Shown in pieces: positions 3,626-35,992 of a stretch of 64,000 nucleotides of DNA. Origin of the DNA: Sporichthya brevicatena (GTDB lineage: Bacteria > Actinomycetota > Actinomycetes > Sporichthyales > Sporichthyaceae); contig NZ_BAAAHE010000020.1 in assembly GCF_039525035.1 (NCBI RefSeq), positions 40,483 to 104,482 on the forward strand, given 5' to 3'. The notes beneath the pieces were generated by a model. The model ran no database searches and was not told the DNA's origin. It was given only the letters and a program-made list of their open reading frames with translations. Position numbers and translations under genes: made by a program. The stretch's first letter is position 1. Every line of letters begins with the position of its first letter.

Positions 3626-5260
3626 ATGACGTACCGGCTCGGCATTGACCTGGGCACGACCTTCACGGCTGCCGCCGTGCTCCGCGCGGGGGGACGCCCG
3701 GAGCCGTTGGTGCTGGGGTCACGGTCGGCCGCCGTGCCGTCGGTCGTCTTCCTCGGCCCCGACGGCAAGGTCCTGTTCGGCGAGGCCGCCGAGGACCGCG
3801 CCCCGGACGCGCCCGAGCGCATCGCCCGCCACTTCAAGCGCCGCATCGGTGACGAGGTTCCGCTTGTCCTCGGCGCCACCGCCGCCGACCGCGTCGAGTG
3901 CTACGCCCACGACCTCGCCGCCGCGATCATCGCCTGGGTCGTCGCCGTCGCCACCGCCCGCGAGGGCGAGCGGCCGGCCGAGATCGCCGTGACCCACCCG
4001 GCGTCCTGGACCCGCCGCAAGATCGACCTCCTGCTCGGCGCGCTCGCCGCGCAGAACCTGCCGCCGGTCACCCTGATCACCGAGCCCGAGGCCGTCGCCG
4101 TGGGCTACGCCGGCACCGGCCTCATCGCGCACCCCGCGACGCTCGCGGTCTACGACCTCGGCGGCGGCACGCTCGACGTCGCCATCCTCACGACCTCCGA
4201 CGACGGCCGCTTCACCCGCGTCGGCGCCGCCGCCGGCCTCGACGGGCTCGGCGGCATCGACTTCGACGACGCCGTCCTCAAGCGCGTGCTCGACGCCGTT
4301 GACGCGGAGTCCTGGGCCGGCCTCGACGGCTCCGACGTCACGCCCGAGGTCCTGCGCGCACTCGCCCAACTGCGCGCGGCGAGCGTCGCCGCCAAGGAGA
4401 CGCTGAGTACTCAGCCGACCGCCTCGGTCTCGGTGCTGTTCGACGGCGAGACCGTCACCGTCCCCCTCGAGCGCGAGACCTTCGACAGCCTCATCGCCGA
4501 CAAGATCGGCCAGTCCGTCGCCTTCTTCGTCGACGCCATCGCCTCCGCCGGCTACGGCGTCGAGAACCTGACGGCAGTCCTGCTCACCGGCGGTTCGGTG
4601 CAGATCCCGCTCGTGACGGAGATGCTCGCCGACGACCTGCCCGAGGGCATCACGATCCTGCGCGCGGTCGACCCCAAGGCGATGGTCGCCGCCGGCGCCG
4701 TGCTCTCGCTCGCGGCTCCGATGGCCGTCACCGCTCCGGCTCCGCGGCGCGGCTCCGACCTCGCGGTCGCGCAGGCTCGGGCCTTCTTCGACTCCCGGAC
4801 CGCGGCGGCCTCGATTCCGGCCGCCCGTAGCGGTGGGTCCGAGGACACGCCCGTCGCGGCGGCTGCGGTCCCGGCGGCCGCGGTGGCGGCCGGTGGCCCG
4901 CCCGCGACCCCGCCCCTGATCCCGGCCGCTCCGAGCCCGTCGCTCGACGACGCCCCGGCGCCGCAGAAGGTCCCGACCCCGCGGACGCCCGAGACGATGC
5001 CGGACGAGACCGTCCCGATCGTTCCGGCCCCGCGCCGGCGCCTGCTCACCTGGCCCCGCGCCGCGGCCGCCACGGTCGTCGCGGCGGCGGTTCTCGTGGG
5101 CGGTGGCTTCTGGCTCCGGGCCGAGAGTCCGACCGTCCCGCCGGCCGCCCCGACGTCGACGAGCGACTCCCTCGGCACGTCGACCGCCCCGGACGACAAG
5201 CCGGCCAAGGCCGCGAAGCCGAAGAAGCCGAAGGCGACCGCGTCCAACGACACGCCCTGA
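3626..5260 (+). CDS. Hsp70-like ATPase 1, membrane-anchored, no substrate-binding domain
   Basis: A 544-aa protein. Residues 1-365 form an Hsp70/actin-type nucleotide-binding domain: phosphate-1 GIDLGTTFT (6-14), phosphate-2 VYDLGGGTLD (175-184), adenosine motif LLTGGSVQIPLV (319-330). After it there is no beta-sandwich substrate-binding domain or lid. Instead come about 100 Pro/Ala-rich residues, one membrane segment around 475-497 and a short Lys/Thr/Pro tail, predicted outside. So it is a membrane-tethered ATPase, not a classic chaperone. The ATG at 3626 is chosen over one at 3563 because it has a G-rich ribosome site and puts the phosphate-1 loop at its normal place. Two paralogues are in this window, both next to IniB-domain genes; this copy is next to the autokinase operon. 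The client is unknown. Confidence 0.85.
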   Translation: MTYRLGIDLGTTFTAAAVLRAGGRPEPLVLGSRSAAVPSVVFLGPDGKVLFGEAAEDRAPDAPERIARHFKRRIGDEVPLVLGATAADRVECYAHDLAAAIIAWVVAVATAREGERPAEIAVTHPASWTRRKIDLLLGALAAQNLPPVTLITEPEAVAVGYAGTGLIAHPATLAVYDLGGGTLDVAILTTSDDGRFTRVGAAAGLDGLGGIDFDDAVLKRVLDAVDAESWAGLDGSDVTPEVLRALAQLRAASVAAKETLSTQPTASVSVLFDGETVTVPLERETFDSLIADKIGQSVAFFVDAIASAGYGVENLTAVLLTGGSVQIPLVTEMLADDLPEGITILRAVDPKAMVAAGAVLSLAAPMAVTAPAPRRGSDLAVAQARAFFDSRTAAASIPAARSGGSEDTPVAAAAVPAAAVAAGGPPATPPLIPAAPSPSLDDAPAPQKVPTPRTPETMPDETVPIVPAPRRRLLTWPRAAAATVVAAAVLVGGGFWLRAESPTVPPAAPTSTSDSLGTSTAPDDKPAKAAKPKKPKATASNDTP

Positions 5261-5303
5261 CGGGTCGTCAAGTTCACCCGATCGGCGTAATCGCGCTACG
5301 AAG

Positions 5304-5332
5304 AAGTCCGGGCCCCGTGGGGGCCCGGACTT
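5304..5332. terminator. Bidirectional hairpin terminator
   Basis: Perfect 13-bp stem AAGTCCGGGCCCC / GGGGCCCGGACTT with a 3-base loop, between the convergent ends of Hsp70-like 1 and the small secreted protein. It ends in TT then GG, so it lacks a long U tract, as is common in actinobacteria. Confidence 0.8.
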
Positions 5333-10422: not shown

Positions 10423-12156
10423 CTACTTCGCCGCGCGCGGGGCCGAAGCGACCTTCATGTCCTTCACCGGCTGGTCGGTGATGGCCGGGGTCGCGGGGTT
10501 CCACGCCGTCGCGCCGACGAAGATCGCCGCCGTCAGGGCCGTGAGCGCCAGCGAACGGCGGACGCTGACGAGCGAGCGCCAGGTCCAGCCGGCCTGCAGG
10601 GCCTCGAGCTCGACGTCGTCGACCGCGGAGAAGAGCTGGTCCTCGAGCGCCGGGCGCGGCGGGGGCAGGGTCTCCGCGCTGCGGACCGGGGCGGGGGCGT
10701 CCTCGACGAGGAGCGCCTCGACCGACCGGACCGCGCGGGCCGGGATCACCGCACGCGGGACCTCGGCGACCATCGCCGCCGGGGCCTCGGACGGCGCCGC
10801 CGGACGCGGAGCGACGGGCGTCGCGACCGCGATCCCCTCGAGCCCGACCACCTCGGGGCGACGGGCACCCCGGCGGGGACGGATCGGCTTGCTGCTCGGG
10901 CCGGTCGGCGTCGGGAGCGGGATCGCCGGGGCCGCGGGGGCCTCGGCGACCGGTGCCTCCGGGGCAGCCGCGACCGCCTGAGCGGCAGCCTTGGGCTTGC
11001 GAGCAGCGGTCTTCACGACCTGCTTCGCGGCGGCGAGCACCGGCGCCGGGGCGGCGGGCGAGGCCTCACCGAGCGCGAGGACCGCACCCGCGGCGACCGC
11101 GGTGGCGGGGGTGGCGGGGGTGGCCCCACCGGCGCGGACCACCGGGCGCTGGAACTGACGCGAGACCAGCTGGGTCACGAGCGGGATCCGGGCCGAGCCG
11201 CCGATCGTCAGGACGGCGGCGAGGTCCGCCGCCGCGACGCCGGCATTCTCCAGCACGGAGTCGAGGACGTCGACGGTCGCCTCGAGCGGGCCGGCGATCA
11301 GGCCTTCGAGCTCGGACCGGGTCAGGCGCACCGAGCCGGCGATGCCGGGCAGGGCGACCTTCACGGTCACGGCGGTTTCGGTGGACAGCTTCTCCTTGGC
11401 CGCGACGCACGAGGCGCGCAGGGTGGACAGGGCGGCGCCGGTCTCGGCGTCCTCGGCGTCGAGGGCGGCGAAGGCGGTCTGCTGATCCGGCGTCAGGCCC
11501 GAGACGACGTGCGCGAGGACGAGGTCGTCGAAGTCCGCGCCGCCGAAGTCGGCGAGCTCGGCGGGCCGGCCGAGGACGGACCAGGTCTGCCCCGCCTCGT
11601 CGAGCTGGACGACCGCGGCGTCGAACGTGCGGCCGCCGAGGTCGTAGATCGCGAGCTTCGTGCCGGGCGCGTAGGCCGCGTCCTGCGCACCCAGCGCGGC
11701 GGCGGCGACGGGCTCGGCGACGAGGGTCGCGTTCGCGACGCCGGCCTCGGCGAGGGCGGCGGCGAAGAGCTCACGCTTGTGCGGGCCCCAGGTGGCGGGG
11801 TGCGTCACGGCGACGGCGTCGGGCGCACGGCCCTCCTGCACGCTCGCCTGGTCGACGACCCATGCGACGAGGTCCGCGGCGACGCGGTGCGCGGCGGAGG
11901 CCGCCCCGACGGCCGGGATCATCGGCGTCTCGTCGCCGATCCGGCGCACGAACCCGCGCAGGACACGCTCGGACTCCGCGGCGGCGACATCCGCCACGGC
12001 GTGGCCGTAAAGACGGGCTCCGTCCGTGCCGATGTAGACCACGGACGGCACCACCGCGGAGTCAGCGCCGAGGGAGGAGCCGCCGGCTCCACCGTCCCGC
12101 GCGATCGTCGCGGCCGTATATGACGTTCCCAGGTCCACGCCCAGTCGGTAACCCAC
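10423..12156 (-). CDS. Hsp70-like ATPase 2, membrane-anchored, altered phosphate-2 loop
   Basis: A 577-aa protein. Residues 1-370 form the Hsp70-type nucleotide-binding domain: GVDLGTSYT at 6-14, adenosine motif TIGGSARIPLV. There is no substrate-binding domain. A long Ala/Pro-rich linker leads to one membrane segment near the C-terminus (roughly 530-552, ALTALTAAIFVGATAW) and a short external tail. Unusual: the phosphate-2 loop reads YDLGGRTFD where Hsp70 proteins have DLGGGTFD. This is one GGC-to-CGC change (codon near 11634), which could lower or abolish ATP hydrolysis. It is divergent from the 1586-aa IniB-like gene with 535 bases between, implying shared control and a functional link with the repeat protein. 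Confidence 0.85.
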   Translation of the reverse strand: MGYRLGVDLGTSYTAATIARDGGAGGSSLGADSAVVPSVVYIGTDGARLYGHAVADVAAAESERVLRGFVRRIGDETPMIPAVGAASAAHRVAADLVAWVVDQASVQEGRAPDAVAVTHPATWGPHKRELFAAALAEAGVANATLVAEPVAAAALGAQDAAYAPGTKLAIYDLGGRTFDAAVVQLDEAGQTWSVLGRPAELADFGGADFDDLVLAHVVSGLTPDQQTAFAALDAEDAETGAALSTLRASCVAAKEKLSTETAVTVKVALPGIAGSVRLTRSELEGLIAGPLEATVDVLDSVLENAGVAAADLAAVLTIGGSARIPLVTQLVSRQFQRPVVRAGGATPATPATAVAAGAVLALGEASPAAPAPVLAAAKQVVKTAARKPKAAAQAVAAAPEAPVAEAPAAPAIPLPTPTGPSSKPIRPRRGARRPEVVGLEGIAVATPVAPRPAAPSEAPAAMVAEVPRAVIPARAVRSVEALLVEDAPAPVRSAETLPPPRPALEDQLFSAVDDVELEALQAGWTWRSLVSVRRSLALTALTAAIFVGATAWNPATPAITDQPVKDMKVASAPRAAK

Positions 12157-12691: not shown

Positions 12692-15600
12692 ATGGCAACA
12701 CCTTCGTTGCTCGAATGGATCATGGATCTGCTGCGCGACAACGACGCGCGCACCGCCTTCAGTCGGAACCCGGAGGCCGCGCTGACGGCTGCCGGCTTCT
12801 CGGCCCGCTGCGGCGCTGAGGTCCAGCAGGCGCGTCTCGCGCTCGCGGACAACCCGTGCATTCAGGAGGTCAAGGGCGTCACGATCCTGCCGCCCGGTGG
12901 CCAGGTCGGCGGCGTGGACCTCGACCCGGACGACGCGGTCGGTCAGATCATCAACATCATCAACAACTACACCTACACCGCCGGCGACATCACCAACACC
13001 GGCGACGGTGCGGTGCAGCAGGGTGACGGCAACGTCAACGCCCCGAACAACAGCGGCGTCGTGAACACCGGTGACGGGAACGTCATCAACAACGGCGACC
13101 AGAACGGCAACACCGGGACCATCGTCAACGGCGACGGCAACACCGTGAACAACGGTGGCCTCATCGGTGGCGACCTCATCGGTGGCGACCTGATCGGTGG
13201 CGACCTGCTCTCCGGCATCCTCAGCCCGGGTGGGGACCTGCTCTCCGGGATCCTGAGCCCCGGCGGGGACCAGAACATCCTCGGCAACCTCGGTCTGCTC
13301 AACGGTGGCCTCGTCAACGGCGGCCTGCTGAACGGCGGCGTCGTCAACGGTGGCCTGCTCACCGACCTGATCGACGGTGGCCTCCTCAACGGCGCGCTCA
13401 ACGGCCTGCTGGCCGGCGGCCTGCTCAACACCGTCGGCACGGGCAACACCGGTGGCCTCACCGGCGTCCTCGGCGGCGACATCCTCGGCAACGTCCTGAA
13501 CATCGGGAACCTGCTCAGCCCCGGTGGTTCCGTGAGCGGCGGCGGCATGGACGGCCTCGGCGCCCTCGGCATCGGCGACACCGCCAACGGTCCGGGGAAC
13601 GACAACAACTCGCTCATCGGCGGCGTCGCGCTCGACGGCGTCCTCGGCAACGTCCTCAGCTCCGGCGGGACGGGCCTCGACCTGGGCGGCGTGCTCAACG
13701 GCGCCGGCCTGCTCAACGGCAACGCTGTTCTCTCGGGTCTGCTCAGCGGCACCCTGAACGGCACCCTGAACGGCACCAACGTCGTCGCGCCGCTGCTGAA
13801 CGGTCTCGACGTCGGCCTGCTCAACGAGGTCAGCCCGAACGTCTTCGCCCCGCTGCTCAACGGTGCGCTCACCGGTCTCCTCGGTGGCGCGGACGTCGAC
13901 GCGGACGTGGTCGGCGGCATCCTCAACGGCCTCGACGGTGGCGTCCTCAACGGCCTCCTCGGCGAGGGCGTCGGCGGGATCGGCGACATCAGCGTCCTGT
14001 CCGGCCTGCTCAACGGCGTCGGCCTGGCCGCTGCGAACGGCGTCACCGCGCCGGTCCTGAACGGCGCGCTGAACGGCGTCGCCAACGGCATCCTGAGCCC
14101 GGAGATCCTCACCGGCGTCCTCGCGGGCGTCGGCACCGGCGACATCGGCGTCGACCTGCTGAGCGGTCTGCTCGGTGGCGACAACGACGTCCTGTCGAAC
14201 CTGATCACCGGCGACACCGCGCTGCTGTCCGGCCTGCTCGCGGGTGTGGGCGTCGGCGACATCGGCGTCGACCTGCTGAGCAACCTCGTCGGCGACGTCG
14301 CCAACGGTGCGCTCAGCCCGGTCATCATCCCGACGCTGCTGAACGGCATCACCGCCGGGATGATCGACACCGACATCCTGACCGGTCTGCTCTCGGGCAA
14401 CGTCGTCTCGCCGGCGCTGCTCAACGGTGTCCTCAGCGGCATCACCTCCGGCGTGTTCACCGGCGACGTCCTGTCGGACCTCATCACCGGTGACACCGCC
14501 GTCCTCAGCGGCATCACCGCGGGTCTGCTGCAGGGCATCACCACCGGCGACCTGGGCGTCAACCTGATTCCGCAGCTGCTCAACGGCATCAGCCCGACGC
14601 TGCTCAACGGCATCGGTGTGGGTGCGTTGAACGACGTGCTCGGCGGTGGCGTCAACGTCGTGCCGGCGCTGCTCAGCGGCATCACGACCGGAGACCTGGG
14701 CCTGCTCAACGGCCTGCTGGTCGGCGTCGCCAACGGCGACAACGCGATCCTGAGCGGTCTGTTCAACGGCGTCGCCAACGGCGTCCTGAACCCGCAGATC
14801 GTGACCGGCCTGCTCACCGGCGACCTCGCCATCGTCCCGGCCCTGCTCAACGGCGTCTCCGGCGGCGACATCGGCGTGGGCCTGCTGAACGACCTCGTCG
14901 GCGGGATCGCCGCCGGCGACATCGGCGTCAACCTGCTCCCGGCCGTGGTCAACGGCGTCCTCGGCGGCGACAACGACCTGCTGAACGGGATCCTGGGCGG
15001 CGACATCATCGGCGACATCACCTCGGGCGACATCACTGACGTTCTGTCAGGGATCAACGTCCAGGGCGTCACGGCGGCCATCGCGCCGGCCGTGACGATC
15101 GTCCCGACGCTCATCGGTGGCCTCGCCACCGGCGACATCTCGCCGGCGATCCTGACCGACCTGATCGGCAGCATCACCACCGGTGCGGTCGGGGCCGAGC
15201 TGCTGACCGACCTGGTCGACCTGGCCACCGGCAACATCGCGCCGGACATCCTGACCGACGTGGTCGGCGGCATCACCGGCAACGTGATCTCGCCCGAGAT
15301 CGTGACGACGCTCCTGAGCGGCATCGTCGGCAACGCGATCGCCCCGTCGATCCTGACGGACCTGATCGGCGACGTCACCACCGGCGCCGTCTCGCCGGAG
15401 GTCGTGACGACCCTGCTCAACGGCATCGTCGGCAACACGATCTCGCCGACGCTCGTCACCGGGCTGCTCAACGGCGTCACCGCGGGCCTGTTCGACACGG
15501 ATGTCCTGACCGACCTCGTCGGTGGCCTCACCACCGGCGACATCACGCCGGAGATCCTGACCGACCTGCTCAACATCGGCGCCCTCGCGGCGCCGGTGAC

Positions 15601-18611: not shown

Positions 18612-18764
18612 GGACCGGGGGCCCTAGTGCGATCTTCACGTCCCCCTAGTGATCACGAGGCGCACCCGCCAAATCCCCGATGGAACAAGGGCTTCGCTCC
18701 GTGATCGTGAAGTGCAGACGCGGTGACCGACACCCACCGCGCACTACGGGGAGGTTCTACCGGC

Positions 18765-26430: not shown

Positions 26431-26461
26431 GCCCCGCCCCGGCGGCCCACCGGGGCGGGGC
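26431..26461 (+). terminator. Hairpin between iniB-like 2 and iniB-like 3 (attenuator-like)
   Basis: Perfect 12-bp stem GCCCCGCCCCGG / CCGGGGCGGGGC with a 7-base loop and no T tract. A related hairpin follows iniB-like 3. Probably a partial terminator or mRNA-stabilising 3' structure within the operon. Confidence 0.6.
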
Positions 26462-26547: not shown

Positions 26548-27240
26548 ATGGCCATCACCCTGCTCGACTGGATCGCCGACCTGATGCGCAACGCCGGCGC
26601 CCGCGAGGCGTTCGCCGCGCAGCCGCAGCTCGCCATGGCGTCCGCCGGCTTCACGCAGTCCTGCGGCTCCGGCGAGGTCTCCCCGGCGTTCTACCCGGCG
26701 GACACCAGCTTCCGCGAGGTCCAGGGCGTCTCGGTGCCCGACACCGTCCAGGACGTCACGTACGTCGAGTACGTCATCAACAACTACACGTACACCACGC
26801 CGGCCGTCTCCACCTCGGAGTTCACCGGCCCGACGACCATCATCGACAACCCGGAGCCCAGCAACACCGAGACCCAGGGCGCCAACATCGAGGGCGACGG
26901 CAACACGGTCGACGCGAACCAGTCGAACACCGTCGACCAGAGCTCGAGCGACGACGACACCACGACCGACGAGAGCACCAACACCGACCAGGACGCCGAC
27001 AACGTCGTGACCGGCGACCACTCGGCCGGTGGCAACCAGATCGCCGGCGGCATCGACGACGTCGGTGAGGGCATCTCGGGCAGCGACAACCTGAACGTCA
27101 TCACGCTGGCGGACGTCGTCGACATCGAGGACTCGCCCATCCTCAACCGCAGCCTCAACGACGCGGTCGACGACAGCCTCAACGAGGTCGGCTACAACCT
27201 GCTCCAGAACGCCGAGAACCTGATCAACATCCTGGGCTGA
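26548..27240 (+). CDS. IniB-domain protein 3 (paralogue of the preceding gene)
   Basis: A 230-aa protein, same plan as IniB-domain protein 2: N-terminal domain with TLLDWIADLMRN, AGFTQSCG and cysteine 39, hinge VEYVINNYTYTTP, an acidic Thr/Asp/Asn middle with FTGPTTIIDNPEPSNTETQG, and the same C-terminal block (ITLADVVDIEDSPILN, VDDSLNEVGYNLLQ, LINILG). The middle and C-terminal parts align almost without gaps. The intergenic sequences after both genes are also similar (a CATCTCG box, a GTGTCGCGCC box and the GC-rich hairpin), showing the duplicated unit included the 3' region. A GAGGAAGG-like site precedes the ATG. Confidence 0.82.
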   Translation: MAITLLDWIADLMRNAGAREAFAAQPQLAMASAGFTQSCGSGEVSPAFYPADTSFREVQGVSVPDTVQDVTYVEYVINNYTYTTPAVSTSEFTGPTTIIDNPEPSNTETQGANIEGDGNTVDANQSNTVDQSSSDDDTTTDESTNTDQDADNVVTGDHSAGGNQIAGGIDDVGEGISGSDNLNVITLADVVDIEDSPILNRSLNDAVDDSLNEVGYNLLQNAENLINILG

Positions 27241-27332: not shown

Positions 27333-27365
27333 CGGCCCCGTCCCGGGTTCACCGGGGCGGGGCCG
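27333..27365 (+). terminator. Hairpin between iniB-like 3 and iniA (attenuator-like)
   Basis: 14-base arms CGGCCCCGTCCCGG / CCGGGGCGGGGCCG with a 5-base loop and one G-U wobble. It lies 86 bases before the iniA start and could reduce read-through into iniA-iniC relative to the iniB-type genes. Confidence 0.55.
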
Positions 27366-27450
27366 CCGCCTGCGCGGACCGGGTCGCGGACTTACCGTGG
27401 CTCGGGGCGCCTGTGGGGGCGGTCGTGAAGACCAGGGTCAGGAGAGGTAC

Positions 27451-29295
27451 GTGCCGGCACCCGAAGCGGTGATCCAGACGGTCGACGAGGCGCTGCGCAT
27501 GGTCACGGCGCGCGGCCGCACCGACCTCGCGGCACGCCTGCGCAAGACCAAGGACCGGCTCCACGACGACCGCATCCGTGTCCTGGTCATCGGGGAGTTC
27601 AAGCAGGGCAAGTCCCAGCTGGTGAACGCCCTGGTCCGGGCCCGGGTCTGCCCCGTCGACGACGACATCGCCACCTCCGTCCCGACGGCCGTGTACTACT
27701 CCGAGACGCCGGTCGTGACGCTGGTGAAGGAGGAGCCGGGCGCGGATCCCGACGACGAGTCACGTCCGGTGCGCACCGAACGCACCGAGGCGAGCCTGGA
27801 GGACATCCAGCGCTTCGTGACCGAGATGGGCAACCCCGCGAACCGCGAGGGGCTCAGCCACGTCGAGGTAGGACTGCCCACGCCGTTGCTCCAATCGGGT
27901 CTTGAGCTCGTGGACACTCCGGGCGTCGGTGGTCTCGGGTCCGTCCGCGCCACCGCGACCCTCGCAGCCCTGCCCGGCGCCGACGCCGTCCTCCTCGTCT
28001 CCGACGCCGCGCAGGAGTACACCGCCGCGGAGCTCGAGTTCCTCAAGCACGCGGTGAAGCTGTGCCCGAACATCGCCTGCATCCTGACGAAGATCGACCT
28101 CTACCCCGAGTGGCGGCGCATCTACGAGCTGAACCAGGCGCACCTGACCAAGGCGGGCATCACGGCCCAGCTGATCCCGGTCTCCTCGGTGCTGCGCTGG
28201 CACGCGCTCGACCGCAACGACAACGACCTCAACATCGAGTCCGGCTTCCCGGTGCTCGCGACGATGCTGACGAACACCGTCGGCCAGGCGGAGCTGCTGG
28301 TGCGGCGCGCGGTCGCGAACACCGTGGCCGGCGTGGCCGAGCAGCTCGCGCGGGGTCTGCAGTCCGAGCTCGGCGTCCAGGAGCACCCGGAGACCGTGCA
28401 GTCGACGGTCACCGACCTGCGTGCGGCCAAGGAGCGGATGGCCGCCCTGCGTGACCGGTCCGCCCGCTGGCAGCAGACGCTCTCGGACGGCGTCGCCGAC
28501 CTCGCCGCCGACATCGACTACGACCTCCGCGACCGCATGCGCGACATCCAGCGCAACGCCGAGGAGGAGATCGACGTCCTCGGCGACCCCGCCGTCGTGT
28601 GGGTCGAGTTCGCCCCGTGGGTGGAGGAGCAGGTCGCGGCCGCGACGTCGGCCAACTTCGTCTGGGCGAACGAACGCGCCCGCTACCTGGCCGCGCTCGT
28701 CGCCGAGCACTTCGCGGAGGACGGTCAGCTCTCGCTGCCCGACCTCGACGTCGACTCCGGCGGGTCGATGCAGGCCGTCCGTCCGATGTACCTCTCCGAC
28801 GAGGGTGACCCGAGCCTCGGCGAGCAGGCCCTGATCGCCGTCCGCGGCGGTTACATCGGAACACTCATGTTCGGCATGTTCTCCACCTTCGCGGGGATGG
28901 CTCTGCTGAACCCGTTCTCGGTCGGCGCCGGTCTCCTGCTCGGTGGACGTACGCTGCGGGAGGAGAAGAAGCGCTTGCTGCAGCGCCGTCAGGCGGAGGC
29001 GAAGAACGCTGTGCGTCGATACACCGACGATGTGACCTTCCACGTCGGGAAGGACTCGCGCGACATGCTGCGCCGGGTCCAGCGTCAGTTGCGCGACCAC
29101 TTCACGCAGGTGGCCACCGAGCTCGAGACGTCGCTGCAGGACTCGCTGAAGGTCGCCGAGGCCGGCGCCCGCACCAACGCCAAGGACCGCGAGGCCCGGA
29201 TCGGTGAGCTCAAGCGCGAGCTCGCCGGCGTCGCCGCGCTGCAGAAGCAGGCTCGCGACCTCGTCGCCGTCGCCGCGAAGGCGGGTGCGGTGTGA
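27451..29295 (+). CDS. iniA: Dynamin-like GTPase, IniA type
   Basis: A 614-aa bacterial dynamin-family protein. G1 P-loop GEFKQGKSQ (49-57), a switch threonine in TSVPTAVYY, G3 LVDTPGVGG (153-161), G4 LTKID (212-216). A helical stalk follows, then a hydrophobic hairpin around 465-500 (YIGTLMFGMFSTFAGMALL) with a basic end, which would dip into the membrane, and returning coiled-coil helices to the end. Mycobacterial IniA (640 aa) has this layout and shows membrane-fission activity in the published structural work; it is induced by wall inhibitors. The GTG at 27451 is chosen for its AGGAG site six bases upstream. It overlaps the iniC start by four bases, so the two GTPases are co-translated and may act as a pair. 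Confidence 0.87.
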   Translation: MPAPEAVIQTVDEALRMVTARGRTDLAARLRKTKDRLHDDRIRVLVIGEFKQGKSQLVNALVRARVCPVDDDIATSVPTAVYYSETPVVTLVKEEPGADPDDESRPVRTERTEASLEDIQRFVTEMGNPANREGLSHVEVGLPTPLLQSGLELVDTPGVGGLGSVRATATLAALPGADAVLLVSDAAQEYTAAELEFLKHAVKLCPNIACILTKIDLYPEWRRIYELNQAHLTKAGITAQLIPVSSVLRWHALDRNDNDLNIESGFPVLATMLTNTVGQAELLVRRAVANTVAGVAEQLARGLQSELGVQEHPETVQSTVTDLRAAKERMAALRDRSARWQQTLSDGVADLAADIDYDLRDRMRDIQRNAEEEIDVLGDPAVVWVEFAPWVEEQVAAATSANFVWANERARYLAALVAEHFAEDGQLSLPDLDVDSGGSMQAVRPMYLSDEGDPSLGEQALIAVRGGYIGTLMFGMFSTFAGMALLNPFSVGAGLLLGGRTLREEKKRLLQRRQAEAKNAVRRYTDDVTFHVGKDSRDMLRRVQRQLRDHFTQVATELETSLQDSLKVAEAGARTNAKDREARIGELKRELAGVAALQKQARDLVAVAAKAGAV

Positions 29296-30992
29296 TCCTT
29301 CGCCGCAAGAACAAGAAACGCGCGGCGGAAACGGACGAGACGGCGACCTCCGGCGTTCCCGCCCAGGCCACCCCCGCCGGTCCGCTGCCCGGCTCCGCTC
29401 CGCTCGAGCCCCCGACGGCTGCGGCTCCGGATGCGCCGCCGGCTCCGGTCGAGACGCCGGCCGCCCCGGTCGCGCGGGAGACGCCGGTCCCCGCGGCGCG
29501 GTCGCGGATCACGCCGGCGTCGACGGACATCTGCGACCAGGTGCGCGCCGTGCTGCAGCAGGCCGCGGAGGTCTACGCCGACCACCCCGAGGAGGCGGAG
29601 CGGATCGAGGCCCACCTCGACCGGCTCGACTCCCCGGTCCGGATCGCCATCGCCGGCAAGGTGAAGGCGGGCAAGTCGACGCTGTTGAACGCGCTCGTCG
29701 GCGAGATCATCGCCCCCACCGACGCGGGGGAGTGCACCCGCATCGTCACCTGGTACCGCAACGCCCAGGCGCCGCGGATCGTCATGCGGCGCAAGGACGG
29801 CGAGGCCGCGGACCTGCCGATCGTCCGGCACAACGGCAAGCTCGAGCTCGACCTGCTCGGCGCCGCGCCCGAGGACGTCGACCGCCTCACCGTCGACTGG
29901 CCCTCCGGTGACCTCTCCTCGATGACGCTGATCGACACCCCGGGCATCGCGTCCGCGTCGGCGGAGGTGTCCGCGCGGACCGAGGCGCTGCTCACCCCCG
30001 ACGAGGAGCAGGGCGCCGCCGACGCGATCGTCTACCTGATGCGGCACGTGCACGCCGACGACGTCGGGTTCCTCGAGGCCTTCCACGCCCACGCGGCGAT
30101 CGGGTCCTCCCCGGTGAACACCGTCGCGGTGCTCTCCCGGGCGGACGAGATCGGCGCCGGCCGCGTCGACGCGCTGCAGTCCGCGCGCGCGATCGCGTCC
30201 CGGCTGCGCGGCGAGGAGAAGATCCGGTCGCTGTGTCAGACCGTCGTCCCCGTCGCGGGTCTGCTGGCCGAGACGGGACGGACGCTCCGTCAGTCGGAGT
30301 TCAACGCGCTCGCGAAGATCGCCGCCGCGGACCGTGACTTCGTCGACGCGATGCTGCTCTCCGCCGACCGCTTCGGGCGCGAGCTGCCCGAGGGCTCGCC
30401 GGACCTGCCGTCGGCCGAGGTGCGCCGCCGGCTGCTCGAGCGGTTCGGGCTCTTCGGCGTCCGGCTCGCGCTGCCGCTGATCCGGCAGGGCATCACGGAC
30501 TCGACGGCGCTGTCGGCGGAGCTCGTCCGTCGCTCCGGGCTGGAGGAGCTGCGCGAGGCCCTGACCGCGCTGTTCACCGAGCGCGGTGACCTGCTCAAGG
30601 CGCGGTCGGCGCTGATGGCGCTGGACTCGATCCTGCGTTCCACGCCGCTGCCCGAGTCGGAGATGCTCTTCGCGCAGGTCGAGAAGATCTCGTCCGGCGC
30701 GCACGAGTTCGTCGAGCTCGGCCTGCTGGGGTCGTTGCGCACTGGTGCCGTCGTGCTCCCCGCGGACCAGCGCGCCGAGGCCGAGCGCCTCCTCGGCGGG
30801 ACCGGTCAGGCCCAGTTCGTGCGCCTCGGCCTCCCGCCGGAGGCGACCCCCGACGAGATCCGCGACGCCGCCACCGACGCGATGGGCCGCTGGCGCCGCC
30901 GGGCCGAGAACCCCGCCTCGACCCGCCCCGTCGCCGACGCCGCCCGCGTCATCGTCCGCACCTGCGAGGGCATCATCGCCTCCCTGCCCTGA
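29292..30992 (+). CDS. iniC: Dynamin-like GTPase, IniC type
   Basis: A 566-aa protein. A Pro/Ala-rich, basic-starting extension of about 75 residues, absent from mycobacterial IniC as I remember it (about 490 aa), precedes the GTPase domain: G1 AGKVKAGKST (121-130), a switch threonine in GECTRIVTWY, G3 LIDTPG (213-218) and G4 LSRADE (around 285). The C-terminal half is helical with no obvious membrane hairpin, unlike IniA. In mycobacteria IniC is the cytosolic partner gene of iniA. The GTG at 29292 overlaps the iniA stop (GTGA). The operon ends here, followed by the large palindrome at 31011-31058 that separates it from the convergent regulator. Confidence 0.85.
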   Translation: MILRRKNKKRAAETDETATSGVPAQATPAGPLPGSAPLEPPTAAAPDAPPAPVETPAAPVARETPVPAARSRITPASTDICDQVRAVLQQAAEVYADHPEEAERIEAHLDRLDSPVRIAIAGKVKAGKSTLLNALVGEIIAPTDAGECTRIVTWYRNAQAPRIVMRRKDGEAADLPIVRHNGKLELDLLGAAPEDVDRLTVDWPSGDLSSMTLIDTPGIASASAEVSARTEALLTPDEEQGAADAIVYLMRHVHADDVGFLEAFHAHAAIGSSPVNTVAVLSRADEIGAGRVDALQSARAIASRLRGEEKIRSLCQTVVPVAGLLAETGRTLRQSEFNALAKIAAADRDFVDAMLLSADRFGRELPEGSPDLPSAEVRRRLLERFGLFGVRLALPLIRQGITDSTALSAELVRRSGLEELREALTALFTERGDLLKARSALMALDSILRSTPLPESEMLFAQVEKISSGAHEFVELGLLGSLRTGAVVLPADQRAEAERLLGGTGQAQFVRLGLPPEATPDEIRDAATDAMGRWRRRAENPASTRPVADAARVIVRTCEGIIASLP

Positions 30993-31010
30993 TCTGCGAC
31001 CTCTTCGTCA

Positions 31011-31058
31011 AAAAAGGGTGTCACCCCTTACTGCGCAGTAAGGGGTGACACCCTTTTT
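31011..31058. repeat. 48-bp perfect palindrome, family P1 copy 1 (likely bidirectional terminator)
   Basis: The left half (31011-31034) begins AAAAAGGGTGTCACCCCTTA and ends at CTGC; the right half (31035-31058) is its exact reverse complement. It lies between the convergent ends of iniC and the IniR-like gene. An extra half-site AAAGGGTGTCACCCC follows at 31067-31081. Copies occur at 34021-34066 and 51043-51098. Confidence 0.9.
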
Positions 31059-31102
31059 GGCGCCAGAAAGGGTGTCACCCCCACTGTGACGGGTGAGGCT
31101 GA

Positions 31103-33763
31103 TCAGGCGTCGTTGTCGAGGGCGGCGCGGAGCTGGGAGAACAGCTCGCCGCGGCTGCCGGCGCCGAGGCGCTGGCGCATACGGGCGACGTGGTGCTCGA
31201 CGGTCTTCGCGGAGATGAACAGCCGCTCGCCGATCTCCTTGTACGTCAGGCCCGTGACGAGCAGAGCGGCGACCTCGCGCTCGCGCTCGGAGAGGCTGAC
31301 CCCGCTCGACGAGGAGGACGACGAGGTCGGCGCGGAGTCCCCCGGACGGCTGGGGGAGGGGAAGGTCGGCGTGTCGGCCGGGAGGTCCAGGCCCGCGGCC
31401 TCGACCGCGACCGAGCCGGCGGCGGCCGGACGCAGCGAGCGGGCGACGCTCATCAGCGCCGACATCACCTGGCGGTCGCCGGTGCGGACGGCGGCCTGGC
31501 CGGCGAGGCGGGAGGCGTCCCAGGCGTGGCCGATCGAGTGCAGACGCCGGGCCGCGGCCTCGACCTCGGTGGCGTCGACCTGACCCGCCATCACGCGCAT
31601 CCACGACCGCGCCGCCGCGGCGAGGACCGCCGCCTGCGGGTAGGACGGGGCCGCTGTCTCGAGCACAGCGATATGTGACTCGGCGTCAGCCGGACGGTCC
31701 GCCAGACTCGCGGCCTGGACGGCATACCAGTGCATCGGGGTCGCCCACAGCGCCGGCTGGCCGAGACGGTCGAGCAGAGCCCACGCCTCGGTGAGGTGCG
31801 GACGGATCCAGCTCTCCTCCTGCAGTCGCGCCGCGGCGACGGCGAGCTCGCCGACGGCGTGCAGCGCGAACAGGTCGACGGGGTGGCGGACGATCGCCTG
31901 CCGCGCCCGCTGCCACGCGGTGGTCAGCGCGCCGAGGTCGCCCTCGCGGCGGGCGAGCCCGACCTCGATGGCGGCGGCGGTCAGTTCCTCGCGGGGCTCC
32001 AGGGCGCCGCCGCCCGGGCCGGCGGAGGCGACGAGAGCGCGGGCGGCGTCGAGGTCGCCCCGCTGCATCGCGGTCCAGGCCTGCAGGAGGCGGTAGCGCG
32101 ACATCGCCGGCTCCCCGCCGAGGCGGACGGCGACCGCCCGGCTCAGCACGGACTCGGCGACGTCGAACTCCCCGCAGTTCAGCGCGACGATCGCGGCGAG
32201 GGCGGCGGGGGTGTCGGGCATCAGGGTCCGCTCGGCGGCGGGTTCGAGCAGCATCGCGGCGCGGGCGAGCAGCGAGAGCGCGAGGCTCGGCGTCCCCGTC
32301 ACGCTCTCCAGGACGCCCTCGGCGAGCAGGGTCTCGACCCCGTCCGACAGCGTCGGTGCCGGCAGCAGGCCGTGCTCGAGGGCGGCGCGCGCCCCGGGCA
32401 GGTCACCGACGCCGAGCAGCGCCGGCACCGCGAGCACGGGCGGCTCGCCGGTCGTGTTGGCCCACCAGCGGTAGAGCTGCGCGGTGCGGCTGAGCATGCC
32501 GCGGGTCGCGAGGACGGTGGCGGCGACCGCGACGGCGACGTCGCGGTCGGGAGCGTTGGCGTCGGAGATCGCGACGTCGGCCAGGCGCAGCGCGGTGTTC
32601 AGGTCGCCGACGAGCGCGCTCGCGCGGCCCAGCTTCGCGGCGACGGACGCGATCGGAACCCCCGCCTGCACGGCGGCGGCGTAGAGCTTGACGGCCTCGG
32701 TCGGCGTCGGGGCCTCCCCGGCACCGGCGGCGAGCACGGCCCCGACCTCGGGCCCGGTCATCCCCGCCCCGGCGAGCGCGCGGGCGTGCTCGAGCATCGA
32801 ACCGCCGCGGCGGTGGACGGCGGTGACCCAGCCGGTCCGCATGGCCTGGATGCGCATCGGCGGCGCGAGGGTGAGCAGCGCGTGCCGGGCGAGCGGCAGC
32901 AGCGCACCGGTCTCGGTCAGCAGCCCGCTCGCGCGCGCCACCTCGGCGGCGTGCTCGACGGACGCGGGCTCGGAGTTCAGGACGTCGGCCAGCACCTGCG
33001 GGTTCAGCTCCGCCCCGACGGCGAGCGCGAGCAGCAGGCTCAGTGGTTCGGGCCCGAGGGCGCTCAGGTCCAGACGCAGGAGTTCGAGGACGCTCGTCGG
33101 GATCTTCGCCGGCGCCCAGCCCGCGTGCCCCGGCCCGTCGGGGACGAGCCCGGCGGCGCACAACGCGGCGGCGAGGGCGTCGACGAGCTTCGGCGTCCCG
33201 GCGGTCTGCTCGTAGACGAACGCGGCGAGCGCGGCGCTGCCGGCCCCGGTGCACAGCCCCTCGACGCGGGCCGTGACCTCGGCCCGCGAGAGCCGCCCGA
33301 GCACGATCGGCGCCCGCTGGCGGCCGAGCGCCGCGGCGAGGGCGTCGACGTGCGGCAGGTCCGGCCCCGGACGCGTCGCGACGACGATGCGCTGGCGGCC
33401 CGCCTCGACCATCCGGCGCAGGTCGAGGAGGACCTCGTCGGGCAAATTGCGGGCGTCGTCGATGAGGAGGACGGCGTCCTCCGGCGGCGGCCAGGCTGAC
33501 GCGTCGCGGTGCACCGTCGCGCCGGCGGTGGAGTAGATGGAGGCGAGCGCGTCGAGCATCGCCGTCTTGCCGGTGCCCCCGCGCCCGACGATGACGCCGA
33601 CCAGCGGGCCGGACGGGTCGGCCGCGGCGTCCGCGCAGAGCGCGACGGCGGCGTGCGAGCCCGAGAACGTCGCGTTCGGATTCCGCGGCGCCGTGAGCGA
33701 GGACGCGGAGCCGCGCGAACCGGGACCGGGAACCCGGGCCGATTGAGCGCTGGCCTGAACCAC
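31103..33763 (-). CDS. Large P-loop ATPase / LuxR-type regulator, IniR-like
   Basis: An 886-aa protein. N-terminal AAA/STAND-type ATPase: Walker A GRGGTGKT (60-67), Walker B AVLLIDD (97-103). A long helical, TPR-like central region follows, then a LuxR/GerE helix-turn-helix at about 815-875 (LSEREREVAALLVTGLTYKE, then SAKTVEHHVARMRQRL). This is the LAL/MalT-type layout: ligand sensed by the central repeats, ATP-driven assembly, DNA binding at the C-terminus. From memory, the mycobacterial activator of iniBAC, IniR (Rv0339c in M. tuberculosis), has the same architecture and is adjacent to iniB, so this gene next to iniC is its likely counterpart. The GTG at 33763 has a GGGGG site seven bases upstream; an upstream start at 33847 would add 28 unlike residues. 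Confidence 0.82.
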   Translation of the reverse strand: MVQASAQSARVPGPGSRGSASSLTAPRNPNATFSGSHAAVALCADAAADPSGPLVGVIVGRGGTGKTAMLDALASIYSTAGATVHRDASAWPPPEDAVLLIDDARNLPDEVLLDLRRMVEAGRQRIVVATRPGPDLPHVDALAAALGRQRAPIVLGRLSRAEVTARVEGLCTGAGSAALAAFVYEQTAGTPKLVDALAAALCAAGLVPDGPGHAGWAPAKIPTSVLELLRLDLSALGPEPLSLLLALAVGAELNPQVLADVLNSEPASVEHAAEVARASGLLTETGALLPLARHALLTLAPPMRIQAMRTGWVTAVHRRGGSMLEHARALAGAGMTGPEVGAVLAAGAGEAPTPTEAVKLYAAAVQAGVPIASVAAKLGRASALVGDLNTALRLADVAISDANAPDRDVAVAVAATVLATRGMLSRTAQLYRWWANTTGEPPVLAVPALLGVGDLPGARAALEHGLLPAPTLSDGVETLLAEGVLESVTGTPSLALSLLARAAMLLEPAAERTLMPDTPAALAAIVALNCGEFDVAESVLSRAVAVRLGGEPAMSRYRLLQAWTAMQRGDLDAARALVASAGPGGGALEPREELTAAAIEVGLARREGDLGALTTAWQRARQAIVRHPVDLFALHAVGELAVAAARLQEESWIRPHLTEAWALLDRLGQPALWATPMHWYAVQAASLADRPADAESHIAVLETAAPSYPQAAVLAAAARSWMRVMAGQVDATEVEAAARRLHSIGHAWDASRLAGQAAVRTGDRQVMSALMSVARSLRPAAAGSVAVEAAGLDLPADTPTFPSPSRPGDSAPTSSSSSSSGVSLSEREREVAALLVTGLTYKEIGERLFISAKTVEHHVARMRQRLGAGSRGELFSQLRAALDNDA

Positions 33764-34094
33764 GCGTTTGCCCCCGTTTTCGATGCCAGTTGGTGCGGCG
33801 GTCGCCGACCCCGCCCCGCGGTCACCCCACGACCACCGTGGGTGCAACGGTCCAGGGGTTCGGACGCTGGATCAAGAAGACTGGTTCCGACGTGAACCTG
33901 CCTCACGCCGATTCTGTCTCTCGAGTAACACCAAACCCACGCGACACGCGTTCGCTTTGCGTTGCGTCCCTGACATCGCCGCGGCTGGGAGCCGGCTGAA
34001 CGCCGCCTGTGCCGATGTCAAAAAAGGGTGTCACCCCTTACTGCGCAGTACGGGGTGACACCCCTTGGTGAGGGGGGCCGCCTAGCGTGGGGGC
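33764..34094. promoter_or_regulatory. Divergent intergenic region, IniR-like / PH-domain pair
   Basis: 331 bases without a gene, less GC-rich than its surroundings. It includes palindrome P1 copy 2 near its right end (34021-34066). No promoter boxes assigned. Confidence 0.45.
34021..34066. repeat. Family P1 palindrome, copy 2 (slightly degraded)
   Basis: The left half is identical to copy 1 (AAAAAGGGTGTCACCCCTTA and CTGC). The right half has one A-to-C change in GCAGTACGGGGTGACACC and ends CCTT instead of a T run. Here it lies between divergent genes, 29 bases before a start codon, so it is not simply a terminator. Confidence 0.88.
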
Positions 34095-34598
34095 ATGGAC
34101 CCGTTCGCGCTCGAGGACCGGTGGACCCCGGTCTCCCCCCGGCTGCGGTCGCTCCGCCTGACGGTGCTGACGGGCGTCCTCGGGACGCTCGCGCTGCTCG
34201 CGGGAGCCGCGGGGGTGCTGATGGCCGTCCTCGACGACCCGGGGCCCGGGCTGATCGGGGCCGGAGCGGCGCTGGTCGTCCTCGGCGGGCTCTACCTGCT
34301 CGGCCGGCGGCTGATCCGCCGCAACTACGAGGCCTGGGGGTACGCGGAGCGGGACGAGGACCTCCTCGTCGTCCGCGGCTGGCTGTTCCGCCGGCTCGTC
34401 GTCGTCCCCTACGGCCGGATGCAGTTCGTCGACGTGACGGCCGGGCCGCTGGAGCGCCGGTTTCACCTCGCGACGGTGCAGCTCCACACCGCCGCCGCGG
34501 CCTCCGACGCCCGGATCCCCGGCCTGCCCCCGGACGAGGCCCAGCGCCTCCGCGACACCCTGGCCCGCCTCGGCGAGGCCCGGTCGGCGGGCCTGTGA
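34095..34598 (+). CDS. PH-domain membrane protein (YdbS-like)
   Basis: A 167-aa protein. Two membrane segments (about 20-42 and 50-68) precede a bacterial PH domain of the bPH2/YdbS type (DEDLLVVRGWLFRRLVVVPY, GRMQFVDVTAGPLERRF, LATVQLHTAA). YdbS-like proteins are usually encoded as a pair with a larger YdbT-like protein, as here: the stop overlaps the next GTG by four bases. In Bacillus, YdbS/YdbT contribute to resistance to antimicrobial compounds; the biochemical role is unknown. The gene is divergent from the IniR-like regulator. The start region is G-rich but the ribosome site is poorly spaced. Confidence 0.82.
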   Translation: MDPFALEDRWTPVSPRLRSLRLTVLTGVLGTLALLAGAAGVLMAVLDDPGPGLIGAGAALVVLGGLYLLGRRLIRRNYEAWGYAERDEDLLVVRGWLFRRLVVVPYGRMQFVDVTAGPLERRFHLATVQLHTAAAASDARIPGLPPDEAQRLRDTLARLGEARSAGL

Positions 34599-35992
34599 CC
34601 GAGTTCCATCCACCCGACGCCGACTACACCCCGGCGGGGTTCCCGCCGCCGGAGCCGGTCACCGAGCCCCTGGCGCCGCCCGCGGCACCGCCCGAGGAAC
34701 CCCGGCTCGCGGCCCGGCTGCACCCGCTGACCCCGTTCGCCCGGGGCTGGGCGGCGATGATCGGCGCGACGGTGATCGCGGGCCAGGACGCGGTCCGCGA
34801 GGCGGACGTGGTCCAGATCCTGCTGATCCTCGCCGTGGTCACGGTCGCGGGCCTGGCGTTCGGGTTCTGGACGTGGTGGTTCACCCGCTACGTCATCGAG
34901 GGCGACGACCTGCGCGTGGACTCCGGGCTGCTGTTCCGCAAGAGCCGGCACATTCGGCTGTCCCGGCTGCAGGCGATCGACGTCGTGCAGCCGCTGGTGG
35001 CCCGGATCCTCGGCCTCGCCGAGCTCCGCCTCGAGGTCGCCGGCGGGGGAGCGGCCGAGGGGCGCCTGGCCTACCTCTCCGAGGACAAGGCCCGCGCGCT
35101 GCGCGCCGAGCTGCTCGCCCGGGCCGCCGGTGTCCGCCCCGACGCCCCCGAGGCGCCGGAGCAGGTCCTGGTCCGCGTCCCGGTCGCCGCGCTGATGACC
35201 TCGCTGCTGCTGACGGTCTGGGTGCCGTTGCTCGTCGTCGGCGGCTCGATCCTCATCGGCGTCGCGATCTGGCAGCGCGAGCCGGCGCTGATCTTCCCCG
35301 CGATCCCGGTCCTGCTCGCCTTCGGCACCCTCGCCTGGCGCGAGCTGGAGAGCGGCTTCGACTTCACCGTCGCCGAGTCACCCGACGGTCTGAGGCTCCG
35401 TCACGGCCTGCTGGCCCGGCACAGCCAGACCGTCCCGCCCGGCCGGGTCCAGGCGCTGCGGATCGTCCAGCCCCTGTTCTGGCGCAACCGCGACTGGGTC
35501 CGCGTCCTGATCAACGTCGCCGGCTACGCGGGCGGCAACGACGCCGCGCAGAAGTCGACGTCGGTCCTGCTCCCCGTCGCCCCGCGCGCCACGGCGCTCG
35601 GCGTGATCGGCCGGATCCTGCCCGGCGTCGACCCGGGGACGATCCCGCTCAACCCCGCCCCGCGCCGCGCCGGCCGCGCCCGCCCGTTCTGGTGGCGCGG
35701 GCTGGCCTGGGGCGCCGACGACCGGGTCTTCGTCGCGACGAGCGGCCTGTTCCGCCGCAACCTCGACGTCGTCCCGCACGGCAAGACCCAGTCCGTCCGC
35801 CTCACCCAGGGCCCCTGGCAGCGCCGCCTCGGCCTCGCGACCGTCCGGCTCGACAGCGTCCCCGGCCCGGTCGTGGTCGAGGTCGCCCACCGCTTTGCCG
35901 CCGAGGCCCGCGAGCTCACCGAGACCCAGGCCGCCCGGGCCCGCGAGGGCCGCCGCTCCGCCGGCCCCGAGCGCTGGATGGCGGGGAGCTGA
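34595..35992 (+). CDS. PH-domain membrane protein (YdbT-like, duplicated PH domains)
   Basis: A 465-aa protein. A Pro-rich cytoplasmic start is followed by two pairs of membrane segments (about 55-95 and 200-245) and three bPH2-type segments, recognisable by repeated cores: VDSGLLFRKSRHIRLSRLQA, LRHGLLARHSQTVPPGRVQA and FVATSGLFRRNLDVVPHGKT. This is the YdbT layout and pairs with the YdbS-like protein overlapping it by four bases (GTGA). The GTG at 34595 is used; the longer upstream frame is the shadow of the neighbour. Likely envelope-stress or membrane-maintenance role by family association; no enzyme motif is visible. Confidence 0.83.
   Translation: MTEFHPPDADYTPAGFPPPEPVTEPLAPPAAPPEEPRLAARLHPLTPFARGWAAMIGATVIAGQDAVREADVVQILLILAVVTVAGLAFGFWTWWFTRYVIEGDDLRVDSGLLFRKSRHIRLSRLQAIDVVQPLVARILGLAELRLEVAGGGAAEGRLAYLSEDKARALRAELLARAAGVRPDAPEAPEQVLVRVPVAALMTSLLLTVWVPLLVVGGSILIGVAIWQREPALIFPAIPVLLAFGTLAWRELESGFDFTVAESPDGLRLRHGLLARHSQTVPPGRVQALRIVQPLFWRNRDWVRVLINVAGYAGGNDAAQKSTSVLLPVAPRATALGVIGRILPGVDPGTIPLNPAPRRAGRARPFWWRGLAWGADDRVFVATSGLFRRNLDVVPHGKTQSVRLTQGPWQRRLGLATVRLDSVPGPVVVEVAHRFAAEARELTETQAARAREGRRSAGPERWMAGS

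Follow-up and report, generated by a model that had tools for sequence, protein, structure and literature searches.

How should one understand a locus that surrounds a pair of dynamin-like genes of the iniBAC type with genes for Hsp70-type ATPases? The question is raised by a stretch of 64,000 nucleotides from Sporichthya brevicatena (RefSeq assembly GCF_039525035.1, a genome of 5.2 Mb in 89 contigs; contig NZ_BAAAHE010000020.1, positions 40,483 to 104,482 of the forward strand), the whole of which is called here the window. Between its positions 3626 and 35992 lies an ini locus comprising three genes for Hsp70-type ATPases devoid of the substrate-binding domain (SBD), three genes with an IniB domain, two genes for low-complexity proteins, iniA, iniC and an iniR-like gene (Table 1). 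The iniBAC operon is well known as a drug-response operon of mycobacteria, and the literature that we found treats it in mycobacteria only. We report that the SBD-less ATPase is a regular companion of ini genes well beyond this group, and we discuss what it may do there: we tentatively see in this set of genes an enlarged envelope-stress locus, where the ATPase would control a scaffold made of IniB while the dynamins reshape the membrane.

Linkage of five gene families across actinobacteria

Named genomes were scanned with an alignment of 16 IniA proteins. Of 571 relatives, the best 80 were retained together with flanks of up to 10 kb on either side of iniA, partner genes being counted within 10 kb. 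Outside Sporichthya, this amounts to 79 named loci, from genera that include Pseudonocardia, Lentzea, Arthrobacter and relatives, Agromyces, Georgenia, Cellulomonas, Rhodococcus and Williamsia. In sixty of these loci, no less than 8 kb is available on either side of iniA; IniC, an IniB domain and an SBD-less Hsp70 were found in all 60, IniR in 59, all five families together in 59; the locus without IniR (L079) did not reveal one to tblastn either. Among the 19 shorter loci, 16 miss at least one part, the missing side being mostly lost at a contig end. A first-pass annotation of the window had proposed that its genes make a single linked system, a claim exposed to failure had related genomes displayed no conserved linkage, and the comparison of neighbourhoods upholds it. 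The same five families came out as the most widespread when 1215 called genes were clustered without any label (79, 61, 55, 52 and 48 of 80 loci, in a count where the gene caller misses some genes); the next family was present in 28 loci, and the one member that was compared with Pfam had no match.

The order of the genes varies. Hsp70, iniR, iniB, iniA and iniC follow each other on one strand in 33 loci; in 12 loci Hsp70 is divergent from iniB and iniR comes after iniC; in 11 loci, eight of them in Mycobacteriales, iniR and Hsp70 are together divergent from iniB, and Microbacterium has a rearranged order of its own. That linkage was kept through rearrangement argues for function.

Retaining the best 80 loci creates a bias towards close IniA relatives, and a sample of 296 genomes taken across the phylum was used as a counterweight, the best few candidates being scored in each genome (4, 22 or 6 in most listed genomes, depending on the search). 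When the ATPase domain of Hsp70-like 3 (Hsp3) was used as the query, with the best six candidates per listed genome scored at E ≤ 1e-45, a threshold too strict to reach the diverged copies of Mycobacteriales, eight copies were found in five genomes, all eight at ini loci, three of them being the window's own. The chance that five genomes drawn at random would all belong to the set of 12 that have a strong IniA, calculated by hand and ignoring kinship, is about 4e-8. Starting from IniA, 14 copies with E ≤ 1e-40 in 12 of the 296 genomes were followed up (15 other genomes with matches between 1e-20 and 1e-26 being left out), and for 11 of these a non-DnaK Hsp70 lies no more than 10 kb away on the contig. 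In G278, iniR, Hsp70 and iniB stand at the end of one contig, iniA and iniC at the start of another, and the IniA copies of G235 (contig C33) and G050 have no non-DnaK Hsp70 in the fetched stretch. Sixteen loci fetched around other Hsp70 matches contained no match to IniA, IniC or IniB. The five-family linkage, together with the presence of the Hsp3-type domain at ini loci only, leads us therefore to consider the ATPase as a core part of the ini system.

It might be argued that the Hsp70-like gene is simply a co-inherited neighbour, devoted to general envelope proteostasis without a specific role beside IniBAC. Indeed, SBD-less Hsp70 matches also exist elsewhere in some genomes, a canonical dnaK is present on the iniC side in the fetched flank of several Mycobacteriales (L110, L118, L120, L124, L132, L147 and L148), and one locus, L064, has no Hsp70-like gene. 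Yet, the linkage persists across several gene orders, families and classes, and the Hsp3-type nucleotide-binding domain (NBD) was found at ini loci only in the 296 genomes, so that we regard this explanation as improbable.

Arthrobacter, Pseudonocardia and Sporichthya belong to groups that are not known to have mycolic acids. An ini system that includes an Hsp70-type ATPase as a core member, in such groups too, is what is new here. No report of a conserved ini-Hsp70 linkage was found in the literature searched, which excluded most subscription papers and all bioRxiv preprints; an earlier hint is a one-sentence remark, in the part of the IniR paper available to us, on a 'dnaK-like gene' beside iniR in Mycobacterium smegmatis (PMC5760070).

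An Hsp70 ATPase without its substrate-binding half

The first-pass annotation had also described the three Hsp70-type proteins as membrane-anchored and deprived of an SBD, and this is what they look like. Their matches to PF00012 cover the NBD only, stopping near position 370 of the 599 in the profile, so that the substrate-binding half is missing, and the matches of Hsp3 to DnaK in the PDB stop at about residue 355, with one at 403. The linker motif of DnaK is absent; beyond the NBD come a linker, often with arginine or lysine, a hydrophobic stretch and a tail. The mean hydropathy of the hydrophobic stretch over 19 residues reaches 1.95 in Hsp70-like 1 (Hsp1) and 2.19 in Hsp3, for a borderline 1.59 in Hsp70-like 2 (Hsp2), and the anchors are accordingly predicted transmembrane segments, the middle one borderline. 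A post-NBD stretch with a mean of at least 1.5 recurs in 79 of 82 non-DnaK rows, some values being barely above 1.5 (that of Paenarthrobacter for example), in a table that omits eight Hsp70 rows without a GGxxRxP-type motif and where a single gene stands twice for L053/L135, as for L138/L139; the exceptions are two genes truncated by the end of the contig or of the fetched segment, and one protein at 1.45. The outer tail extends over some 30 to 300 residues and is rich in proline, threonine and serine in most of the tails inspected. As these proteins have no signal peptide, the NBD is predicted to be cytoplasmic and the tail to lie within the wall.

Six catalytic positions were considered, D8, K70, E171, D194, T199 and D201 in the numbering of Escherichia coli DnaK. 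All six residues are retained by 63 of the 86 linked NBD rows, including Hsp1 and Hsp3 of the window, and several are lost in Rhodococcus, Williamsia and Mycobacterium-like copies, in three Pseudonocardia and in one Cellulomonas. In a tree of the NBDs, nine short ones being omitted, the linked Hsp70s cluster (6 label changes for 22.8 in shuffles, 0 of 500 as low), and Hsp1, Hsp2 and Hsp3 fall within a supported set of 64 linked and three unlinked rows. The copies of Mycobacteriales branch apart, among unlinked paralogues, so that a single origin of all linked copies is not established. Genome-wide, in the window genome and in its relative G298, the IniA of which is 99% identical to that of the window, PF00012 matches with E ≤ 1e-10 comprise one DnaK, one short MreB-like match and the three proteins of the ini locus.

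IniB, a folded domain with a tail poor in lysine and arginine

Three IniB-domain proteins and two further low-complexity proteins had been proposed at first pass, and the count holds: two of the former exceed the 40-bit cut-off of the IniB N-terminal domain profile NF038175, while the third, IniB3, remains under it, at 30.1 bits, and is 68% identical to IniB2. The rest of the genome offers nothing better than E 0.09 for this domain. In an AlphaFold2 model of IniB2, residues 1 to 90 are confidently placed (predicted local distance difference test, pLDDT, of 83 to 96 by block). They comprise five helices, with a short strand between the fourth and the fifth and a further strand, after the fifth, at the conserved NNY motif; the segment from 103 to 195 is for the most part below 50, and likely disordered. 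IniB1 is modelled with the same layout at lower confidence. A fold search with the IniB2 model returned no PDB match at E < 0.001; the borosin-binding domain of SonA recurs among the PDB chains listed, and this resemblance (SonA/LigA) is too weak to be claimed and stands as a lead only.

The tails have an unusual composition. The share of lysine and arginine (K+R) in 112 IniB tails has a median of 1.43%, with 17 tails containing none and a maximum of 7.1%, to be compared with 12.2% in IniA, 13.7% in IniC and 10.1% in IniR of the same loci. The longest run free of these residues covers 1525 residues in IniB1 and 1823 in a Rhodococcus IniB, when the 309 genes called in a 400-kb segment of G298 have runs of 163 at most, none reaching 200. 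Two kinds of tails are met: acidic ones, made of D, S, N and T and often displaying a repeated DSFN-like motif, and giants rich in glycine, alanine and leucine, some of which show a hydropathy period of two. The kind of tail goes with the state of the ATPase. Tails with at least 60% of G, A, L, V and I accompany an Hsp70 lacking K70 in 14 of 14 loci; elsewhere, K70 is missing in 6 of 58 loci and intact in 52. Sporichthya has both forms, as its divergent Hsp70/IniB unit exists twice, once as an intact Hsp3 with the acidic IniB2, once as Hsp2, with valine at position 70, and the giant Gly/Leu-rich IniB1. The earlier statement that two Hsp70 genes out of three diverge from an IniB-domain gene agrees with this in coordinates and strands. 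A strict matching of Hsp70 and IniB copy numbers was considered and dropped, several Pseudonocardia loci having two or three IniB and one Hsp70. L144 and L151, which are diverged ini loci outside the class, have lysine-containing acidic-repeat proteins at or near the place of iniB.

The two low-complexity proteins have no family match at E 0.01; the 736-residue protein has a clear match in G298 only, and the 566-residue protein is matched in Sporichthya loci only.

Where would the IniB proteins reside? The earlier supposition was that of an extracellular layer, formed or guarded by IniB together with the repeat proteins and put together by the ATPases, and the secreted PYT-type proteins encoded nearby would go along with this view. 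However, judged by hydropathy only, no N-terminal signal-like stretch is visible in IniB1, IniB2, IniB3 or the 736-residue protein, and the 566-residue protein begins with a moderately hydrophobic segment lacking a charged n-region. Furthermore, a folded domain of helices is predicted at the N-terminus of IniB, and the NBD of the Hsp70-like proteins would sit on the opposite side of the membrane. A surface layer is therefore quite improbable, and the IniB proteins, with a predicted folded N-domain and no signal-like stretch, are predicted to be cytosolic.

A hairpin after iniB

In most loci, the segment that follows iniB tends to fold. Compared with shuffled sequences, the 110 bases after the iniB stop have z ≤ -2 in 61 of 73 loci and z ≤ -3 in 52 of 73, for 10 and 2 of 80, respectively, in a control placed inside iniA, and for 27 and 17 of 130 at other co-directional junctions (130 of 182 junctions used, 52 left out). 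A stem of at least nine pairs is present in 51 of the 73 loci, at a median of 28 bases past the stop, and it is followed by a T-rich segment in three. No Rfam family matched the window at the gathering threshold. The hairpin is predicted to let IniB exceed IniA and IniC, and the IniR paper states that its RNA-seq data suggest such an excess (PMC5760070). Strong hairpins are also seen just past IniB1, in 17453-17633 (region z -7.0).

The dynamins and the IniR-like protein

The IniA/IniC pair and the IniR-like gene named at first pass are present (Table 1). IniA aligns with the IniA structure 6j72 over residues 25 to 610, and the start of iniC overlaps the stop of iniA by four bases. The dynamin motifs are GEFKQGKS and DTPG in IniA, GKVKAGKS and DTPG in IniC; in the named loci, the P-loop is present in 79 of 79 IniA and 78 of 78 IniC, and DxPG in 75 of 79 and 78 of 78. 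The IniR-like protein is homologous to NF038181 over residues 66 to 911 and, with a score below the equivalog cut-off of 750 bits, we name it IniR-like. A scan of 18-mers for an operator shared upstream of iniB1 and iniB2 gave only matches with three mismatches, about what chance would yield by a hand estimate, and no IniR site is claimed. L150 (G235:C33) and L152 (G050:C107) contain IniA-like paralogues without a match to iniB, iniC or Hsp70 in the fetched stretch, and in that of G235 the P-loop lysine is replaced by methionine.

Dynamins also appear in phage defence, and PADLOC models indeed match IniA (LeoBC, 6e-14) and IniC (LeoA, 1e-17), as well as the product of 17634-18584 (AbiEi, 9e-15). 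That the ini locus is a dynamin-based anti-phage system is nevertheless extremely improbable: the Leo matches (1e-9 to 1e-17) may reflect the shared dynamin fold and would be plausible for a bacterial dynamin of any kind, the match of IniA to true IniA reaches 4e-129, and the AbiEi-like gene is unmatched in the other named loci.

A possible mechanism and its strongest rival

Taking as a start point the observed gene content and linkage, the missing SBD, the catalytic residues, the IniB tails poor in lysine and arginine and the tendency to form a hairpin, we may outline how the parts could work together. The IniR-like ATPase would switch the operon on under wall stress, as mycobacterial IniR activates iniBAC, with trehalose as an activating cue (PMC5760070), and the hairpin would result in an IniB made in excess over IniA and IniC. 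With its NBD inside the cell and its Pro/Thr/Ser-rich tail in the wall, the Hsp70-like protein would report on the state of the wall or be anchored to it, its ATP cycle starting or dissolving an IniB assembly on the inner face of the membrane. The dynamins would then cut or seal the membrane at this assembly, in line with the cutting of membranes by IniA with GTP in vitro (PMC6715688). The interpretation that we favour, giving it somewhat less than an even chance, is that of an enlarged ini locus for envelope stress, where an SBD-less Hsp70, predicted to be tethered in the membrane, would control a predicted cytosolic IniB scaffold and dynamins would reshape or reseal the membrane.

A number of observations weigh against it. 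In a mirror-tree test on 62 of the 80 loci, the partial correlation of Hsp70 with IniB is -0.05 once IniA and IniC distances are removed, 370 of 500 permutations being as high, and there is a weak one of Hsp70 with IniR (0.13, 35 of 500 as high); the neighbour of the Hsp70 gene, on the same strand, is iniR in Micrococcales and Mycobacteriales. Hsp1 is not encoded beside an IniB gene, and its relatives in G296 and G297 (L155, L170) are outside the examined ini neighbourhood. L064, from a Pseudonocardia draft genome, has iniB, iniA, iniC and iniR, with no Hsp70 in the 5.8 kb upstream of its first iniB. The association of tail type with K70 spans two lineages only, Mycobacteriales and Sporichthya, and the six other loci with a K70-less Hsp70 carry other IniB tails. 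In G086, G113 and G031, diverged and partly lysine-containing repeat proteins are found near the place of iniB, so that avoidance of lysine and arginine is not universal. The tail of IniB1, modelled at a mean pLDDT of 41, is uninterpretable, and the structure of IniB tails is not predicted with confidence. L053, the sole Sporichthya locus in the hairpin count, scores +1.2 in its 110 bases because its stem starts only at base 107. Finally, M. tuberculosis appears to be without the Hsp70-like gene, which the available part of the IniR paper names for M. smegmatis only (PMC5760070).

Some of these features lead to the strongest rival, which we hold to be rather unlikely. Here, the Hsp70-like protein would be a wall-stress sensor, the tail perceiving damage and the NBD holding or releasing the IniR-type activator, with IniB, IniA and IniC as mere output; MalT-type regulators, held by partner proteins, provide a parallel. 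The 33 loci of the H+R+B+A+C+ type (H, R, B, A and C standing for Hsp70, iniR, iniB, iniA and iniC) and the 11 of the R-H-B+ type, where Hsp70 comes first, co-directional with and adjacent to iniR, speak for such a sensor, as do the weak Hsp70-IniR correlation of the trees and the degraded ATPase sites of Mycobacteriales, which fit a binding-only role. However, Sporichthya and most Pseudonocardia have Hsp70 apart from iniR and divergent from iniB; three Hsp70-like genes stand against one IniR-like gene in Sporichthya; and M. tuberculosis IniR appears to function in the absence of an Hsp70-like gene, as far as the part of PMC5760070 at hand tells. The sensor and the scaffold may both hold.

Surroundings of the locus

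The ini locus is flanked by a polysaccharide/BY-kinase pair on one side and by a DUF2520-panC-panD-nadBC-coaX-lysS block on the other. The DUF4012, PYT and PH genes that the first-pass annotation saw around the locus are indeed there, without being part of the conserved core: their matches, like those of DUF4184 and the two low-complexity genes, were confined to Sporichthya or its family, the other named loci giving none, and we see them as local additions. The PYT label itself suits two secreted proteins and a third, previously unlisted one (5366-5755), which is related to that of 7851-8486, is located between Hsp1 and the DUF4012 gene and is also present in G298; no 'PYT' domain came up in Pfam or in NCBIfam. 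The protein of 8629-9459(-) looks secreted and combines pentapeptide_2 repeats with a hydrophobic stretch at its C-terminus. Between IniB1 and the 736-residue gene, 17634-18584(+) encodes an AbiEi antitoxin-like protein with a weak DUF559 match. Further on, 36374-37018(+) and 37401-38018(+), beside the locus, encode two proteins that look alike, having a signal-like start and short G-x-y stretches reminiscent of collagen.

Table 1. Genes and hairpins of the Sporichthya ini locus, in window positions (TM, transmembrane segment; HTH, helix-turn-helix)
Feature	Positions	Strand	Evidence
Hsp70-like 1 (Hsp1)	3626..5260	+	PF00012 1.2e-34; one predicted TM; outer tail of ~47 residues; catalytic residues as in DnaK
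Third small PYT-type protein	5366-5755	-	APYTP motif
DUF4012 gene	5855-7651
PYT-labelled secreted proteins	7851-8486 and 8629-9459
Hsp70-like 2 (Hsp2)	10423..12156	-	PF00012 1.5e-32; K70 equivalent is V; borderline predicted TM; outer tail of ~30 residues; divergent from IniB1
IniB1	12692..17452	+	NF038175 44.9 bits; Gly/Leu/Asn-rich tail
Leu/Pro-rich 736-residue protein	18723..20933	+	No known domain; 588-residue stretch without Lys/Arg
Gly/Leu-rich 566-residue protein	21399..23099	+	No known domain; 352-residue stretch without Lys/Arg
Hsp70-like 3 (Hsp3)	23233..25179	-	PF00012 1.1e-44; one predicted TM; outer tail of ~184 residues; divergent from IniB2
IniB2	25605..26306	+	NF038175 51.5 bits; acidic D/S/N/T tail
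GC-rich hairpin after iniB2	26431..26461	+	Whole gap z -2.3
IniB3	26548..27240	+	NF038175 30.1 bits, under cut-off, 33/49 positions aligned; paralogue of IniB2
GC-rich hairpin between iniB3 and iniA	27335..27363	+	Region z -2.8; other genera commonly have a hairpin here
IniA, dynamin-like GTPase	27397..29295	+	PDB 6j72 E 4.2e-129; Dynamin_N 6e-20
IniC, dynamin-like GTPase	29292..30992	+	Dynamin_N 2.1e-11
Two-way terminator-like hairpin, gap between iniC and IniR-like gene	31009..31060 (ends approximate)	.	z -6.7
IniR-like ATPase with LuxR HTH	31103..33847	-	NF038181 445.5 bits, E 4e-133; GerE 7e-16
bPH_2 gene	34028-35992

Comparison with known systems

With the Hsp70-type ATPase as a regular ini partner, non-pathogenic hosts become available for testing the parts of a system that influences envelope permeability in mycobacteria (PMC13413693). 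Three features lend themselves to such tests: the predicted wall-spanning tail of the ATPase, the IniB tail poor in lysine and arginine, and the hairpin, which would set the ratio of IniB to IniA; these details are new, as are the degraded ATPase sites of Mycobacteriales. One may go further, and imagine the ancestral ini system as a membrane-repair machine made of scaffold, Hsp70 and dynamins, older than the mycobacterial outer membrane, where a wall-anchored SBD-less ATPase would drive assembly and removal of a Lys/Arg-poor IniB scaffold at places of damage while IniA and IniC cut and seal, the ATPase having later become a pseudo-ATPase in Mycobacteriales and having been lost in M. tuberculosis. 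We regard this wider scenario as unlikely.

A repeat scaffold, an Hsp70-type ATPase and dynamins also work in a single system in the cycle of the clathrin coat, Hsc70 and dynamin. This is an analogy only: no homology of IniB to clathrin was seen in any search, and the Hsp70-like protein has no SBD. With DnaK and other Hsp70 chaperones, it shares the ATPase domain and its motifs, and it differs from them in having a predicted transmembrane segment and a Pro/Thr/Ser-rich tail where DnaK has its linker motif and SBD. The closest relative of the locus is the mycobacterial iniBAC-IniR system (Rv0339c-Rv0343 type), with which it has in common the ordered IniA and IniC homologues, the IniB N-terminal domain genes upstream and an IniR homologue nearby. 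It departs from it by its SBD-less Hsp70 partners, its three IniB-domain proteins, its iniR-like gene placed after iniC, an IniR under the equivalog cut-off and a host group not known to have mycolic acids. M. smegmatis shares with Sporichthya an Hsp70-type gene at the ini locus, the dnaK-like gene beside iniR (PMC5760070), and, in contrast to the degraded active sites of the Mycobacterium-like and Rhodococcus copies, those of Hsp1 and Hsp3 in Sporichthya are intact.

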